Of a stretch of DNA of 48,542 nt, positions 25,113 to 32,048 are shown one piece after another. Numbering within the stretch: the first letter of the stretch is position 1; every line of letters begins with the position of its first letter. The position numbers and the translations under genes are program-made. This stretch comes from Acidobacteriota bacterium (lineage in GTDB: Bacteria; Acidobacteriota; Blastocatellia; UBA7656). The stretch lies in assembly GCA_016201275.1 (NCBI GenBank), contig JACQDB010000005.1, positions 1-48,542 on the forward strand, in the 5' to 3' direction. Below the pieces are notes generated by a model that was not told the origin of the DNA, ran no database searches, and saw nothing but the letters and a program-made list of their open reading frames with translations.

Positions 25113-27017
25113 TCAACTTCTGGAAAGCACGGTCAAGGTTTTCGGAGCCTTGTGCTTCTGCACCTGTTCGTGCCAGCCATCGGGCAAATCGCCGTTGTCT
25201 TCTCTGAGGTATTGCCACTGATTCGGCTTGATGGTGGCCAGCAATTCTTTGCGCGTTTTCACCTCTATGGGCTTGCCTACATAAATCTTGCCCATCTTGT
25301 CCATCAACCATTCGGGGATGGCGCTAGAAAACATAAACAGCGGCCACTTGAAACTTGGCCCGTTGGTCTTTCGCAATTTCCACGCCCACAATCCCAACGC
25401 GCCCATGCGCCAAGCCGTAGGCGCCCACCAACTGTATTGACCGGGGCGCAGATTCATCTTCCAACATTTCATAATCAATTGCCATTGCAAAGGCGTCAAT
25501 TGCAGAGTCTCGGTGACGCCCTCTTTATCCTGCATACGCGTGTCGTGCAGCGGCGTGAAGATCGAAGGAATGAAGAAAGCGAATTGTCCGCGTCGCTCGA
25601 CTTCGTAAATTAAATCGAGCGTCGCTTTGGTGTCTTCATCGGTTTCGCCGGGATTGCCAACAATCAAAGTCACCGCCGGAAACCAGTTGTTGCGGTTCAA
25701 CACTTCGAGTCCGCGTATGAAGACGCTCGGCCAGTCTTCAATGGAAAACGGCACGCCTTTGCTCGGCATAATCTGCTTCGCCATACGCACCGAACCAGTC
25801 TCCAAACCGATCAACGGCGTCAACGATTTCTTCAACGGATGGGTACTGAGCATAGGCAGATGAATCGGGCTTTTATCGAGACAAACTTCCGACAGCTTTT
25901 CAATCAACAACGGATCAACCACTGCCGGAGCAATGGTCGAATGGCTGAGGACGTGTTGCTCGACGCCCGGCGTGTTAACGATGTCGGCATACAGATCAAG
26001 CAAGGCTTCGCGGTTGGGAAAATAGAAAGGCGTTTCGGTATGCACCTGCCCCCAGATGAACATATCTTCGGTGGCCAGAGAAATCTGTTTGTTGCCATCG
26101 CGCACGTTGGCGCGCACGGCGTTCATGATTTTGTCCTTCGGCATATCAATCTGCGGGTTCAAATCCGGCACGCAGAATTGACAGCGCCGCCCGCATCCGG
26201 TGGTCATCTCGACCACGCCGAAAGTGGTGCGCTTGTCGGGAAACAGAATTTCATTGCGATCTTTGGGATGCGCGACATCAATTTGACGCGGCAAGGTTTC
26301 TCCGGCAATCGCCTGACGAAACAGTTTCAAAGTGTCTGTAGATTCGCTGCGCCCTTCGACGACGCAATCCACGCTCAGTTCCTCAAAGCTGTTGGTCTGG
26401 GTAATCTGCCAACCGCCAGAACCGCCGACGATGACTTTGAAATTTTCACGGTGCGGATTGGCTTTGATGGTGGCAAACATTTCGCGTGAATAGTGCGAAT
26501 TGATGGGCATTTTCGACGATCCGAAGATCGAAGTATAAACTCCTGCGGCAAACGTCACGCCTAACGGATTGTGCGTAGAGACCGCCACAACGCGGGTGTT
26601 TGCGCCGATGAATTTATCAAGGTCTTGCGGGAAACAACAAACCACGTCGTCTTCAGCGAATTCGCGCAGTATGGATTTTTCCAGCACGCGCACACCGGCG
26701 GGCATATAGCGCGCCGAACCATCATCGTTGTATTCGACGTTGCGCCAGTCGGGATATTTTTTATTGAGTATGCCTTCCAACCAGATGGGCAAAGACGCCA
26801 TGCTCATCTGAATGAAATACCCGGCGTGGTCTATGGTCTCGGTAAGCGGTGCGGTGATGACGATTAATTTGCCGCCACTTTGCGGAGCCGCATCGCCGTG
26901 AGATTCCAATGTCGCAGCTTGGCGGTTGCCATTGGCTTTCCCATTGGTAGGAAGATGCCCGTTCGCTTTGCCGTTTACAGACGGCGATGGAGTCGCCTGC
27001 GAATTACTCAAACTCAT
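25113..27017 (-). CDS. radical SAM protein of unknown substrate
   Basis: This is a 634-residue enzyme. Residues 1-50 are low complexity (NGKANGHLPTNGKANGNRQ). A Rossmann-like N-terminal domain, of the kind that binds cobalamin in many such proteins, spans about 55-240, but the base-off DxHxxG motif is not clearly present. The [4Fe-4S]/SAM cluster motif is CGRRCQFC (C-x3-C-x2-C) near residue 266, followed by a TIM-barrel core with GNPGETDEDT as a typical SAM-binding segment. The C-terminal about 120 residues, with SWWAPTAWRMGALGLWAWKL, are Trp-rich and perhaps membrane-associated. The reaction is unknown; anaerobic ring-forming or methylating chemistry is possible but unsupported. ATG 27017 is the likely start, with GAGGTAAATC upstream. 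The same strand carries the beta-propeller, pdxA and hfq genes upstream. Confidence 0.85.
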   Translation of the reverse strand: MSLSNSQATPSPSVNGKANGHLPTNGKANGNRQAATLESHGDAAPQSGGKLIVITAPLTETIDHAGYFIQMSMASLPIWLEGILNKKYPDWRNVEYNDDGSARYMPAGVRVLEKSILREFAEDDVVCCFPQDLDKFIGANTRVVAVSTHNPLGVTFAAGVYTSIFGSSKMPINSHYSREMFATIKANPHRENFKVIVGGSGGWQITQTNSFEELSVDCVVEGRSESTDTLKLFRQAIAGETLPRQIDVAHPKDRNEILFPDKRTTFGVVEMTTGCGRRCQFCVPDLNPQIDMPKDKIMNAVRANVRDGNKQISLATEDMFIWGQVHTETPFYFPNREALLDLYADIVNTPGVEQHVLSHSTIAPAVVDPLLIEKLSEVCLDKSPIHLPMLSTHPLKKSLTPLIGLETGSVRMAKQIMPSKGVPFSIEDWPSVFIRGLEVLNRNNWFPAVTLIVGNPGETDEDTKATLDLIYEVERRGQFAFFIPSIFTPLHDTRMQDKEGVTETLQLTPLQWQLIMKCWKMNLRPGQYSWWAPTAWRMGALGLWAWKLRKTNGPSFKWPLFMFSSAIPEWLMDKMGKIYVGKPIEVKTRKELLATIKPNQWQYLREDNGDLPDGWHEQVQKHKAPKTLTVLSRS

Positions 27018-27258: not shown

Positions 27259-28323
27259 TTACTCTACCCAATCGGCGATAAAGACATTGGTATCGCCGAG
27301 TTTGGCATCGTGGCGATTGGAAGCAAAGACGAGTTTTTTGCCATCCGGCGAAAACATCGGAAAGCCATCAAAGGTGTCATTATAAGTGATGCGCTCCAAC
27401 CCTGTGCCATCCACGTTGATGGCATAGAGGTCGAAAGTCCGGCCTTTCGGATCATCCATGTTGGAAGCAAAGATGATGCGTTTGCCGTTCGGAAAAAAGT
27501 ACGGCGCAAAATTGGCTTTGCCATTGCTGGTCACTTGCCGCTTGGCGGTGCCGTCGGCTTTCATCACCCAGATTTCCAGCGTCGTCGGACGAATCAAATT
27601 CTCTTTCAACAAGGCTTGATAATCGGCTATAGCTTTGGCGCTTTTCGGATGGTGCGCGCGATAGACGATCCATTGATTGTCGCTGGAATAAAACGCGCCG
27701 CCATCATAACCAATCTCCGTGGTCAGGCGTTTCACCTGCTTGCCGTTCATATCCATCGTGTAAATATCCAGGTCGCCATTTCGCAGCGCCGTGAACACAA
27801 TCTTTTTGCCGTTGGGCGAAATCGTCGCCTCGGCGTCGTAGCCAGCGGAATGCGTCAGTTGACGTATATCGGAACCATCCGGTTTGGCGGTGAAAATTTC
27901 ATAACCCGGATACAACGCCCAGACGTAGCCTTTCGAGTAATCAGCGCGTGGCGGGCACTTGGCATCGGTCAGATAAGTCGAAGCGTACAGGAGGCGCGAA
28001 CCGTCGCGATAAAAATAGGCACAAGTGGTGCGGCCTGTGCCTGACGACAGCATTCGCAAGCCGGAGCCATCAATATTCATTTCATAAATCTGATCGCACT
28101 CGTGGCCTTCGCGGGTAGATTGAAAGATCAATTTTTTGCCATCGGCGGAAAAATAGGCTTCGGCATTTTCGCCACCAAAAGTTAATTGCCGGATATTTTT
28201 CAGGTGCTTTTCATCGGGCAGACGCAGCGGGTCTTGAGCGGTTTGCGAAGCAACGCCGAGCGGTTGCGCCAGCGAAATCAACAACGCCCACAGGCTCAAA
28301 AAAATTGCCAGAAAAAATTTCAT
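27259..28323 (-). CDS. secreted TolB-like (PD40) beta-propeller protein
   Basis: This 354-residue exported protein has signal peptide MKFFLAIFLSLWALLISLA. It carries six or so WD40-like PD40 repeats of the pattern FSADGKKLIFQSTREG, ISPNGKKIVFTALRNG, FFPNGKRIIFASNMDD and FSPDGKKLVFASNRH, each preceded by D-x-Y-x-M/I. Such propellers bind proteins or sugars in the periplasm or outside. No enzymatic domain is attached. ATG 28323 is chosen (GGAG nine bases upstream) because it directly precedes the signal peptide. It follows pdxA by 25 bp on the same strand, so the two are probably one transcript. Confidence 0.9.
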   Translation of the reverse strand: MKFFLAIFLSLWALLISLAQPLGVASQTAQDPLRLPDEKHLKNIRQLTFGGENAEAYFSADGKKLIFQSTREGHECDQIYEMNIDGSGLRMLSSGTGRTTCAYFYRDGSRLLYASTYLTDAKCPPRADYSKGYVWALYPGYEIFTAKPDGSDIRQLTHSAGYDAEATISPNGKKIVFTALRNGDLDIYTMDMNGKQVKRLTTEIGYDGGAFYSSDNQWIVYRAHHPKSAKAIADYQALLKENLIRPTTLEIWVMKADGTAKRQVTSNGKANFAPYFFPNGKRIIFASNMDDPKGRTFDLYAINVDGTGLERITYNDTFDGFPMFSPDGKKLVFASNRHDAKLGDTNVFIADWVE

Positions 28324-28348
28324 GCGGATCATCTCCAAAATATTTTTA

Positions 28349-29365
28349 CTACTGCCGATAGCGCGCAAGCTGCGCCGCAAGCTTGATGGCTTCGATCAGG
28401 CTTTGCGCTTGGGCGATGCCTTGACCGGCTTTATCGAACGCCGTGCCGTGATCTACCGAGGTACGAATAATCGGCAATCCCAAAGTCACATTGACGGCTT
28501 CGCCAAACGCCAGACACTTGACGGCGATCAAGCCTTGATCGTGATAACCGGCGATGACTGTATCAAATTCCCCACGCGCAGCGCGAACGAATATGGTGTC
28601 GGCAGGAAAAGCTCCCGACACGTCAATCTGCAATTGGGTTCGACAATACGCAATCGCCGGTTCGATTTCGTCAAGCTCTTCGCGCCCGAACAAACCGTGT
28701 TCTCCGGCGTGCGGATTCACTCCGGCCACTGCTATGCGCGGTTGCGAAATCCCAAAACGGCGCATCTCCTGGTCGGTCAAGGCAATCGCTGCGATGACGC
28801 GCTCTTTGCGTATAGAGCGAATGGCGTCCTGCAAACTCTGATGAATGGTCAACAGCACGACGCGCAGATTCCCGGCAAAAAAACACATCAGCGATTGCGC
28901 TGCGCCGCACCACGCCGTCAGCATTTCGGTATGACCGGGAAACGGCGAGCCCGCCAGTTTCAAAGCCTCTTTGTTAATGGGCGCAGTGGCGATGGCATCA
29001 AGATGCTGTGCCAGACACAAACGCACGCCGGTTTCGATAAAGGCAATGGCGGCGCGCCCTGCCGCTGCCGACAGCTTGCCGAATGCCACCCCTGCACAGC
29101 GCCTCCCGACGTCACAGATGACGACCTCTGCGCCTGCCATTGCCGTCATCTCCGCTTCGCGGACTAGCGGGTAATCGCAAGGCAGTTTGAGAAGTTGCGC
29201 CTGCCGGCGAAGCTCTACGGCGTCGGCGATGATGATCAGTTGGCAGGCAGACCTCAAGCGTGCATCGGCGACGGCTTTCAAAACGATTTCCGGGCCGATG
29301 CCAGCAGGGTCTCCGAGGGTAATTCCGACACGCGGCTTGTTGGGACTGTCTGGTTCTGAAGTCAC
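28349..29365 (-). CDS. pdxA: 4-hydroxythreonine-4-phosphate dehydrogenase
   Basis: This 338-residue enzyme of the DXP-dependent pyridoxal phosphate pathway makes the ketoamine precursor for PdxJ. It shows the PdxA start VGITLGDPAGIGPEI. The metal and substrate His are in FPGHTEML (about residue 147) and PHAGEHGLFG (about 221). YHDQGLIAVK and GLPIIRTSVDHGTAFD complete the PdxA signature. Length is normal. It is followed by the propeller gene at 25 bp and preceded by hfq, 52 bp upstream on the same strand. Confidence 0.95.
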   Translation of the reverse strand: MTSEPDSPNKPRVGITLGDPAGIGPEIVLKAVADARLRSACQLIIIADAVELRRQAQLLKLPCDYPLVREAEMTAMAGAEVVICDVGRRCAGVAFGKLSAAAGRAAIAFIETGVRLCLAQHLDAIATAPINKEALKLAGSPFPGHTEMLTAWCGAAQSLMCFFAGNLRVVLLTIHQSLQDAIRSIRKERVIAAIALTDQEMRRFGISQPRIAVAGVNPHAGEHGLFGREELDEIEPAIAYCRTQLQIDVSGAFPADTIFVRAARGEFDTVIAGYHDQGLIAVKCLAFGEAVNVTLGLPIIRTSVDHGTAFDKAGQGIAQAQSLIEAIKLAAQLARYRQ

Positions 29366-29417
29366 AAGGTTAAGCCATTAAGGTGAGTACATGGTGGAGC
29401 GTTTCGGCTCGGCACAT

Positions 29418-29834
29418 TTATTCATCGGACTCTTCATCGCTGTCGTCGTTTTCCTCTGTGGCGTCCAGATCATCGGTCTCTTCGGTTTCATCCGGTGCGT
29501 CGCTTGTGTTGTCGCCGTTCAATTCTTCGTCACTCTTGAAGATATATTTGACGTTGTGTTTCAAGACCAGCAGATTGGGGCCGCTGGCGCGATGCAACTT
29601 GATGCAGTTGCGGTCATACCATTCGATAGTGCCGCGCAGTTCTTCGCCGTCCTGCAAGACCAGCACCATTTTGGTCTTGTTATCCATCTGCTTTTTGTAA
29701 TAGAAGCTTTCGGCGTGCGTTTGTTCGGGCGGCACACGCTTGCGGTTTTGATCCGCAGGACCGCCGCGCCGTGAATCGCGCTCGGCCTTCTCGCGGATTT
29801 CCGCCAGCGTCGGCCTGATCAGTTTCCTATTCAT
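29418..29834 (-). CDS. hfq: Hfq-like Sm protein with basic N-tail and acidic C-tail
   Basis: This predicted 138-residue RNA chaperone has its Sm fold at residues 48-100. [22 protein letters not shown] corresponds to Sm1. [12 protein letters not shown] and [13 protein letters not shown] correspond to the Hfq beta4 and Sm2 KHA strand. Residues 1-47 are basic ([21 protein letters not shown]) and residues 101-138 are very acidic, with about half Asp or Glu. Hfq in E. coli is about 102 residues with a weakly acidic C-tail. Here the C-tail is a strong polyanion and could act as a nucleic acid mimic, as inferred for the Hfq C-terminal tip. The gene begins with GGAGG eight bases upstream of ATG 29834. 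Confidence 0.82.
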
Positions 29835-30221
29835 GACACATCCTCCAATGAAGATTTACTTTCCAAACGATAGCCTATGGTTGCGCCCCGTGCCTCTTCG
29901 CTTCCGCTGCCGGAACGCTACACGATACGCAAGCACTCGCCGACGCCTAGACCTTACGAATCTTCAAGCTATTAAGTAGCGTGGGTTTGCTTTAACCGTT
30001 CAGAATAGTCAGATAGTAGCGTAAGCCTTCAGCAAAAGTCAAAACGCAGTTTCCAGTTTTTCAATTTTTCTCAAGCGGCAATAGAGAAAACCGAAAATGC
30101 CAAAATTCTGTAATCACAAAACTCTTTTTTCACTCAAGATGAGGAAGCGCTAGTTTGCTTTCCCAGGCTGGCTGAACCTTCACAACGGAAAACTCTTTGC
30201 CTTTTGCGGCGCGCCTCTTCT
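29835..30221. other. 387-bp region between divergent hfq and hflX
   Basis: It must carry both promoters. No hairpin, repeat or gene is recognised. The first half is moderately GC-rich and the second AT-rich. The hfq ribosome site is at its left edge. Confidence 0.5.
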
Positions 30222-32048
30222 ATGATGATTCAGGTTCCAGAGCGTTCGGTTCGGCAACTTCCGAATCACTTGGAGGTGAAGGCGATTAGTAACATAGAAG
30301 GCAACACTCAGGGGCTGAAACCCAATCAGCTTCAACGCATTGAAAAACTCTACAACCGCCGCATTCCGCCGCGTGACATCGTGACACAGGAATTTGCCCG
30401 GCACCTCAGCGAGTTATCACGCGAAATCAATCGTCAAATTGGCGTGCTGGTCAATCGCAACGGCTATGTGGAATATGTCGTCGTCGGCAACGCGAACGCC
30501 ATCGTGTTGCCCGACCTGAAGCGTGTACGCATGAGCGCCGAACGCTTTCGCGGCCTGCGTTGTCTGCACACCCATCTGCTCGGCGAAAAGCTTACACAGG
30601 ACGACTTGACCGACTTGGCTTTGCTGCGCCTGGATTTAATGGCCGCCATCGAAGTCAAAGCCGATGGCCTGCCCGGTGTGGTGCGCGCCGCGCATCTATT
30701 GCCCGCCAATGGCAATCAAGCAGGCGAAGCGCGCCAAAAATCTCTTGAAGCAGATAGCGACGAAGACCACAGCGAAGCAGCCGCCCAGCCGTGGGCATTT
30801 CTAGAGCCGCGTGTGCCATCGCAACTCGAGGTTGATTTTCTTGACCTGATTACTTCGCTTGAAGAAGAGTTGGCGCGCTCGCGTCACGTTCGCAATCCGC
30901 GCGATCAGCGCGACCGCGCCATCCTCGTAGGCGTCACTACCGGTAGCCTCGCCGAGGCACAGGAATCTTTAGACGAGTTGAAAGAACTGGCGCGTTCTTC
31001 CGACGTGGTGGTGCTGGATTCGGTCATTCAACGACGGCAGAAACTCGACCCGCGCTCCTTGATCGGACGCGGCAAACTCGAAGAGTTAATTATACGCAGC
31101 CTGCAACTAGGCGTGGACGCCATCATCTTCGACCAGAATTTAAGCTCGGCTCAAGTCCGCGTCATCAACGATGCGACCGATTTGAAAATCATAGACCGCA
31201 CGCAATTGATCCTCGACATCTTCGCGCAACGCGCCCAGAGCCGCGAAGGCAAGATTCAAGTCGAGTTGGCGCAGTTGAAATATATGTTGCCGCGCCTGTC
31301 GGGTTCGGGCACCGAAATGTCGCGCTTGATGGGCGGCATCGGCGGCAGAGGCCCCGGCGAAACCAAACTCGAAGTTGACCGTCGCCGCGTGCGTGACCGC
31401 ATCCATCATCTGGAAAAACAGATTGAACAGCTTCGTACCAGTCGCAAGGTGCAACGCATGAAGCGATTGCGCCGCGAGGTGCCGATTCTTTCCATCGTCG
31501 GTTATACCAATGCCGGTAAATCAACTTTGCTGAACGCGCTGACGCAATCAACGGTGACAGCGGAAGACTTGATGTTCGCCACGCTTGATCCTACGAGTCG
31601 GCGTTTGCGCTTGCCACGCGAGCAAGAGGTCGTCATCAACGACACCGTAGGCTTCATCAAAGATTTGCCGCCCGATTTGATTACCGCCTTTCGCGCTACC
31701 TTGGAAGAGATGGAAGGCTCGGATTTGCTGATTCATCTGGTGGACGCCAGCAATCCGCAATTTGAAAATCACATCGCATCGGTCAAGAAACTTTTAGAAG
31801 AATTGAAATTGTCAGACATACCGCACCTCCTCGTCTTCAACAAGTCCGATTTACTGAGCGAAGATGAAATCATGAATTTGCGGCGCGCTTTCAACGCCGT
31901 GATGATTTCGGCCATCCGGCGCGAGACGCTGGCACCGATGCTGGAACGCATCGGTGAATTGCTCGACAGCGCCGCCGCCGCACGCACCAGCTTGCGCGAG
32001 GCGAAGCAGCAAATCGAAACAGCGTCCCCGGCGACGCAAAAAATTTAA
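30222..32048 (+). CDS. hflX: ribosome-associated GTPase HflX (long form)
   Basis: This 608-residue GTPase binds 50S/70S ribosomes and splits stalled ones. After an N-terminal extension of about 195 residues, common to long HflX proteins, comes the HflX domain (about 230-420: AILVGVTTGSL, then DPRSLIGRGKLEEL and IFDQNLSSAQVRVI). The GTPase domain has G1 GYTNAGKS near residue 428, G2 TVTAEDLMFATLDPT, G3 DTVG, and G4 NKSD. The signature SGSGTEMSRLMGGIGGRGPGE, before G1, is intact. A coiled coil precedes the G domain. The start is the ATG pair at 30222/30225; the RBS is weak. It lies divergent to hfq, as hfq-hflX are neighbours in some other bacteria, and lemA follows by 13 bp. Confidence 0.93.
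   Translation: MMIQVPERSVRQLPNHLEVKAISNIEGNTQGLKPNQLQRIEKLYNRRIPPRDIVTQEFARHLSELSREINRQIGVLVNRNGYVEYVVVGNANAIVLPDLKRVRMSAERFRGLRCLHTHLLGEKLTQDDLTDLALLRLDLMAAIEVKADGLPGVVRAAHLLPANGNQAGEARQKSLEADSDEDHSEAAAQPWAFLEPRVPSQLEVDFLDLITSLEEELARSRHVRNPRDQRDRAILVGVTTGSLAEAQESLDELKELARSSDVVVLDSVIQRRQKLDPRSLIGRGKLEELIIRSLQLGVDAIIFDQNLSSAQVRVINDATDLKIIDRTQLILDIFAQRAQSREGKIQVELAQLKYMLPRLSGSGTEMSRLMGGIGGRGPGETKLEVDRRRVRDRIHHLEKQIEQLRTSRKVQRMKRLRREVPILSIVGYTNAGKSTLLNALTQSTVTAEDLMFATLDPTSRRLRLPREQEVVINDTVGFIKDLPPDLITAFRATLEEMEGSDLLIHLVDASNPQFENHIASVKKLLEELKLSDIPHLLVFNKSDLLSEDEIMNLRRAFNAVMISAIRRETLAPMLERIGELLDSAAAARTSLREAKQQIETASPATQKI

Follow-up and report, generated by a model that had tools for sequence, protein, structure and literature searches.

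A probable ancient Hfq paralogue of Acidobacteriota with replaced RNA-contact residues and a conserved N-terminal motif

The window is the whole stretch of DNA that was analysed, positions 1-48,542 (48,542 nucleotides) of contig JACQDB010000005.1 from Acidobacteriota bacterium GCA_016201275.1 (Blastocatellia; UBA7656). It contains a gene for an Hfq-like protein, HfqL, whose parts and nearest neighbours are collected in Table 1. The boundaries given for this gene in an earlier note, 29418-29834, proved exact, the reading frame being on the minus strand; a plus-strand frame across the same interval is not Hfq-like and was rejected. The earlier note had described a basic N-tail of about 47 residues and a very acidic C-tail of 38, and had remarked that canonical Hfq lacks a long N-tail. 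The C-tail was found as described. The N-tail is basic but only mildly (the translation has 12 K/R and 7 D/E among residues 1-47), and its length is closer to 38 residues, with a net charge of about +4, as the Sm domain begins at about residue 39. N-extensions of canonical Hfq are indeed short, usually about 4 residues (PMC6561178). The acidobacterial canonical Hfqs have 7-16 residues before the conserved (I/L)Q(D/N) of helix a1.

Table 1. Parts of the HfqL gene and its adjoining genes in the window
Feature	Position	Strand	Remarks
HfqL gene, 138 aa	29418..29834	minus	ATG 29834-29832, stop 29420-29418; profile match in own genome
N-terminal motif, residues 2-16	29787..29831	minus	Phylum consensus NRKLIRPxLSE
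Variable linker, residues 17-33	29736..29786	minus	4-14 of 17 residues identical in close relatives; low-to-middling pLDDT
PPEQTHAE a1 segment and Sm core, residues 34-100	29535..29735	minus	55-62 of 67 residues identical in close relatives
Acidic C-tail, residues 101-138	29421..29534	minus	Net charge -21; 8-38% identity to close relatives
pdxA	28349..29365	minus	Pfam PdxA 7e-102; 52 bp downstream of HfqL stop
hflX-type GTPase	30204..32048	plus	Pfam GTP-bdg_N/M, MMR_HSR1; divergent from HfqL, likewise in L003

The pdxA gene is a probable operon partner of HfqL. It was found directly downstream of HfqL at 38 of 79 loci, and holB, often behind tmk, was found upstream at 28 of 69. A PSP1 (RicT-like) gene was found upstream at seven, in a few lineages between holB and hfqL, and at two of the loci examined, L034 and L041, the order tmk-holB-PSP1-hfqL-pdxA is entire. 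Given the role of RicT, the adjoining PSP1 gene is a weak hint to RNA processing; a search of the literature for Hfq with RicT or with Holophagae gave nothing useful. The recurrent gene order points to old vertical inheritance and is not alone evidence of shared function. In other parts of the phylum hflX often comes next after canonical hfq, and tmk-holB precedes HfqL; in the class to which the window belongs, canonical hfq is followed by tmk(-holB), and hflX lies divergent beside hfqL-pdxA in the window and in L003. This exchange of neighbours was compared between window positions 28349-32048 and loci L001, L003, L091-L111, L114, L115 and L122. Terminator-like sites at the locus were no more numerous than in shuffled sequence, and a single promoter-like match upstream of hfqL (30042-30013) carries no evidence of function. 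The window also encodes a radical SAM protein of 634 residues with a long Asn/Gly/Lys-rich front (25113-27017; Pfam Radical_SAM) and a PD40 beta-propeller (TolB-like) frame at 27259-28380. With the TTG start listed for the latter, it would share 32 bases with the 3' end of pdxA; its true start probably lies further in.

The description of the Sm core as Hfq-like was borne out. The Hfq-type domain covers about residues 39-101, and the protein matched Pfam Hfq_1 (PF21979, 'Hfq related') with 34.3 bits, passing the gathering cut-off of 27; the same model matched 43 of 43 members of the HfqL alignment at E<=0.01. Scores against other Hfq models were under their cut-offs, namely 24.2 bits for Pfam Hfq (PF17209; cut-off 27), 23.7 for TIGR02383 (61.7), 29.1 for NF047718 (Hfq_rel_Cyano; curated cut-off 52) and 21 for PRK14091 / NF010691 (270). 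AlphaFold2 was run for monomers only, with the 43 family members as the input alignment. The core, residues 40-100, was predicted with pLDDT of about 90-97 as helix a1 (residues 40-51) followed by five strands, which is the canonical arrangement. The N-tail (about 56-77) and the C-tail (52-65) had lower values, and the linker includes the end of a weakly predicted helix at residues 10-23. The 50 structural matches listed were all Hfq proteins, and structure alignment (VIA) to Hfq gave a Z of about 12. A second model, of an HfqL from Aminicenantes, had the same fold and a weak N-terminal helix at residues 10-29. HfqL is therefore predicted with high confidence to keep the Sm/Hfq fold. The window protein has the EWYD core motif that defines HfqL, with E42, K92, K/R96, Y97 and K100, together with the defining NRKLIRP motif near its N-terminus.

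The earlier note took the protein to be an Hfq with tails. This was not borne out. A canonical Hfq scoring 95.7 bits is encoded on a different contig of this genome, directly upstream of tmk, and with the tree this second Hfq led to rejection of a mere tail variant of canonical Hfq. In a tree of 82 sequences, built on just 65 columns, HfqL is divided from every canonical Hfq, those of E. coli, Caulobacter, Bacillus and Acidobacteriota included, by a branch of 7.4 changes per column with support of 100/100. Anabaena Hfq floats in this tree on a very long end branch of 10. By these comparisons HfqL is placed as a deep sister family, separate from the canonical Hfq with which it shares genomes.

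HfqL was present in 198 of 297 sampled Acidobacteriota genomes. Counting as canonical any recognisable Hfq, that is, a PF17209 match with E of 1e-12 or better, 93 genomes had both proteins, 105 had HfqL alone, 51 had canonical Hfq alone and 48 had neither. This threshold divides the genomes cleanly: best E-value exponents between -9 and -14 do not occur among the 297. Mutual exclusion of the two proteins was rejected over the same genomes (Fisher p 0.46). Blastocatellia keep canonical Hfq, and in Aminicenantes no canonical Hfq was found. Where the records of the 80 kept contig loci give a title it is Acidobacteriota or Aminicenantes, apart from one Acidimicrobiia (L020), which is probably mislabelled because its protein is nearly identical to that of L010. 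A mobile origin was rejected, there being no plasmid match and no relative in viral contigs. A long frame in genome G153 (L086) suggesting fusion of HfqL to another domain was also rejected; its upstream part looks like frame read-through, and a start codon precedes NRRLIRP. Some Blastocatellia (G303, G321, G306 and G132; loci L161-L164) have an extra, shorter HfqL-like paralogue of about 50-64 bits to the HfqL profile and without the NRKLIRP motif, one of these having a glycine/lysine-rich front and an acidic end. The best explanation of HfqL itself is an ancient, mostly vertically inherited Acidobacteriota paralogue of Hfq.

The residues through which Hfq contacts RNA were compared between 102 HfqL and 26 acidobacterial canonical Hfqs, using structure alignment and sequence alignment for the equivalences to E. 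coli Hfq. The position of Q8 is E in 102/102 HfqL (E42) and Q in 26/26 canonical proteins, and that of R16 is M in 98/102 (M50) against R in 26/26. Asparagine replaces F42 in 81/102 (N76; Y/F in 26/26 canonical), leucine replaces Q52 in 96/102 (L88; Q in 24/26), tyrosine replaces T61 in 97/102 (Y97; T in 24/26) and K or R replaces S60 in 102/102 (K96; S in 23/26). Other distal swaps are Y25 to V59, N28 to D62 and I30 to E64. Within the proximal set that marks canonical Hfq (Q8, F42, K56, H57), the window protein therefore differs at two positions, E42 and N76; K56 is kept, as is H57, which is variable across HfqL. At the rim, the canonical R16/R17/R19 patch is reduced in the window protein to R19 alone, kept as K53, with M50 and D51 at the other positions. 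In the family as a whole R16 is mostly M/I, R17 mostly N/Q/D/E and R19 K/R in most members. The equivalents of D40, G34 and K56 are retained in HfqL, and the acidobacterial canonical Hfqs retain standard or similar residues at nearly all contact sites. Loci L003-L082 were fetched by exact 8-mers (e.g. IEWYDRNC), which biases the invariance seen there; a recount on 43 profile-found HfqL gave the same replacements, with a more varied F42 site (N 19, G 9, S 5, others). HfqL has in addition a conserved basic set of its own: K48, K53, R75, K79, R82, K92, K96 and K100. Judged from the alignments, nearly all the classical proximal, rim and distal RNA-contact residues are replaced in HfqL by other conserved residues, which is no proof of lost RNA binding.

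The motif NRKLIRPxLSE was found in 106 of 113 HfqL members, and a looser form of it in 36 of the 43 profile-found ones. The window protein was compared with six relatives, most of them members of its own family and order, whose synonymous sites are saturated or close to it. In these pairs the motif keeps 11-14 of its 15 residues, compared with 2-14 of 23-38 residues in the C-tail. The dN values were 0.08-0.22 for the motif, 0.05-0.15 for the core and 0.59-1.54 for the C-tail, suggesting that the motif is nearly as constrained as the core; the a1 segment, too, is under strong constraint. It is diverged or absent in a few families (L126, L149-L152, L141, L160). In the Blastocatellia families f5, f81 and f82 (L149-L155) it is altered, e.g. 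VNKRTLRSTYTDY and VTKKTVRATYTDV, and the partner, if any, may have changed along with it. The motif is probably a docking peptide that links the ring to a partner protein, perhaps one of RNA processing; alternatively it could pack on its own ring or, having R3, K4 and R7, itself bind RNA.

The C-tail behaves differently. Its net charge is -9 to -24 in the six relatives and -20 to -29 in family f5, and acidity recurs in every examined relative of the same family or order. Other Blastocatellia have short or moderate tails and those of Aminicenantes reach +6. Of the tail architecture whose spread the earlier note had wished to see checked, the N-motif is phylum-wide, but strong acidity is nearly confined to Blastocatellia and tails elsewhere are mostly short, neutral or even basic. 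The N-motif is thus a trait of the HfqL family and the strongly acidic tail a trait of a lineage. These features of the two ends are more than chance because the motif is present in 106 of 113 members and the acidity recurs in relatives. That charge is kept without sequence in the Blastocatellia tail fits some electrostatic role.

What that role might be bears on the proposal of the earlier note that the acidic tail could compete for the Sm surface with RNA, giving faster exchange, and may touch the basic N-tail. In E. coli and Caulobacter Hfq the acidic tips compete in this way, docking on basic rim residues in the known auto-inhibition (PMC5606850, PMC6561178), and the core of HfqL carries a basic charge (median net +4 per protomer). 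However, because R16 and R17 of the rim are replaced family-wide, the tail would have to compete without most of the usual docking site, and Hfqs that have no such arginines have been proposed to pair RNAs poorly (PMC6561178). Most HfqL moreover have no strongly acidic tail, and as it was put the competition is not supported. Contact between the tails has a parallel in models of P. aeruginosa Hfq, which place the acidic tail close to an N-terminus of weakly basic character (PMC5606850), but in HfqL the N-tail charge stays at about +1 to +5 whatever the C-tail charge, and the two hardly vary together (rho -0.27, a weak value not corrected for phylogeny), which gives pairing of the tails little support. 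Taken as a whole this explanation is rather unlikely. That the tails are neutral disordered padding and the Sm core alone matters is very improbable; conservation of the C-tail is indeed poor and its prediction has low confidence, as is usual for disordered segments, but the N-motif is conserved phylum-wide and between relatives at or near synonymous saturation, and the acidic make-up persists in relatives.

The 105 genomes with HfqL and no recognisable canonical Hfq could suggest that HfqL is a diverged working Hfq, its RNA sites re-coded for the same matchmaking, which replaces the canonical protein. This is improbable, as 93 genomes keep both without any sign of exclusion and the same kinds of replacement occur in Blastocatellia, where canonical Hfq is kept, and in Aminicenantes, where none was found. 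HfqL might instead resemble cyanobacterial Hfq as a protein-binding Sm ring largely off RNA that serves some other machine as subunit or adaptor. At the base of the pilus, Synechocystis Hfq binds PilB1 (PMC4390875), an example of an Hfq lineage that did change its job in this way. HfqL and cyanobacterial Hfq both lack most RNA-contact residues, share W..D..C and match Pfam Hfq_1, and the constrained N-motif resembles a docking peptide. Against this, the two families are far apart by NF047718 score and by the Anabaena branch, and the eight conserved basic positions favour a remaining nucleic-acid role, so that we consider this reading doubtful too. The explanation to which we lean, with somewhat better than even confidence, is an ancient Hfq paralogue forming a probable ring with other ligands, held by its N-motif and not acting as a classical sRNA matchmaker. 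From the lost R16/R17, the kept basic set and the N-peptide, we infer such a ring with different ligands and an N-motif tether. The ring is probably a hexamer and would not be a classical sRNA-mRNA matchmaker. It probably still binds nucleic acid with another specificity through its own conserved basic set, while the N-motif probably holds it to a protein partner. The acidic tail of Blastocatellia would be an add-on to this mechanism, a charge brake probably tuning non-specific nucleic-acid binding. More tentatively, and with less than even confidence, the rebuilt RNA faces (E42, D62, E64, R75, K79, K96, Y97) and an N-peptide tether to a machine of its own could make HfqL an unrecognised, phylum-wide Sm-ring system, and about a third of the sampled genomes would have no other Hfq-type protein.

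No paper on the HfqL family was found in the open library searched, which covers only a minority of subscription journals. The kind of protein is known, its Sm domain being already covered by the Pfam 'Hfq related' model. Apparently new, in that no description was found in that library, is a phylum-wide family with an N-motif, a rebuilt surface and conserved neighbours. Nearly all studies of Hfq concern cases in which it pairs sRNAs with mRNAs, and here a large soil phylum has an old second Hfq-type family in which the matchmaking residues are gone and another set is nearly invariant. Because the contact residues are nearly all lost and the N-end tag is conserved, HfqL probably has a job different from that of ordinary Hfq. 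The work of an Sm ring that has no classical sites can thus be tested directly, and 'Hfq present' in Acidobacteriota should not be read as 'sRNA matchmaking present'.

Among known systems, canonical Hfq (PF17209, TIGR02383; E. coli, Caulobacter, S. aureus, B. subtilis) shares with HfqL the Sm fold of a1 and five strands and the D40 and K56 equivalents, and gives the top structural matches. HfqL differs from it in the contact residues of all three faces, in its long conserved N-motif, in scoring under the PF17209 and TIGR02383 cut-offs and in its separate branch. PRK14091 / NF010691, the second Hfq of Burkholderia, is likewise a longer, second-type Hfq with an extended tail, but its similarity to HfqL is weak (21 of 270 bits). 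The acidic-tipped Hfqs (E. coli DSEETE, Caulobacter DADD; PMC5606850, PMC6561178) also have a disordered acidic C-terminus beside a basic core, whereas the HfqL tail has 38 residues and a net charge of -21, is nearly confined to Blastocatellia and faces a rim from which the docking site is mostly missing. Cyanobacterial Hfq (NF047718; 3hfn, 3hfo) resembles HfqL in missing most classical RNA-contact residues; the Synechococcus elongatus protein also matches Pfam Hfq_1, and Anabaena Hfq shares W72, D74, C77, K92 and Y97. However, HfqL is far under the NF047718 cut-off (29.1 vs 52), and the cyanobacterial structures, of 65-72 residues, are without its long NRKLIRP N-extension.
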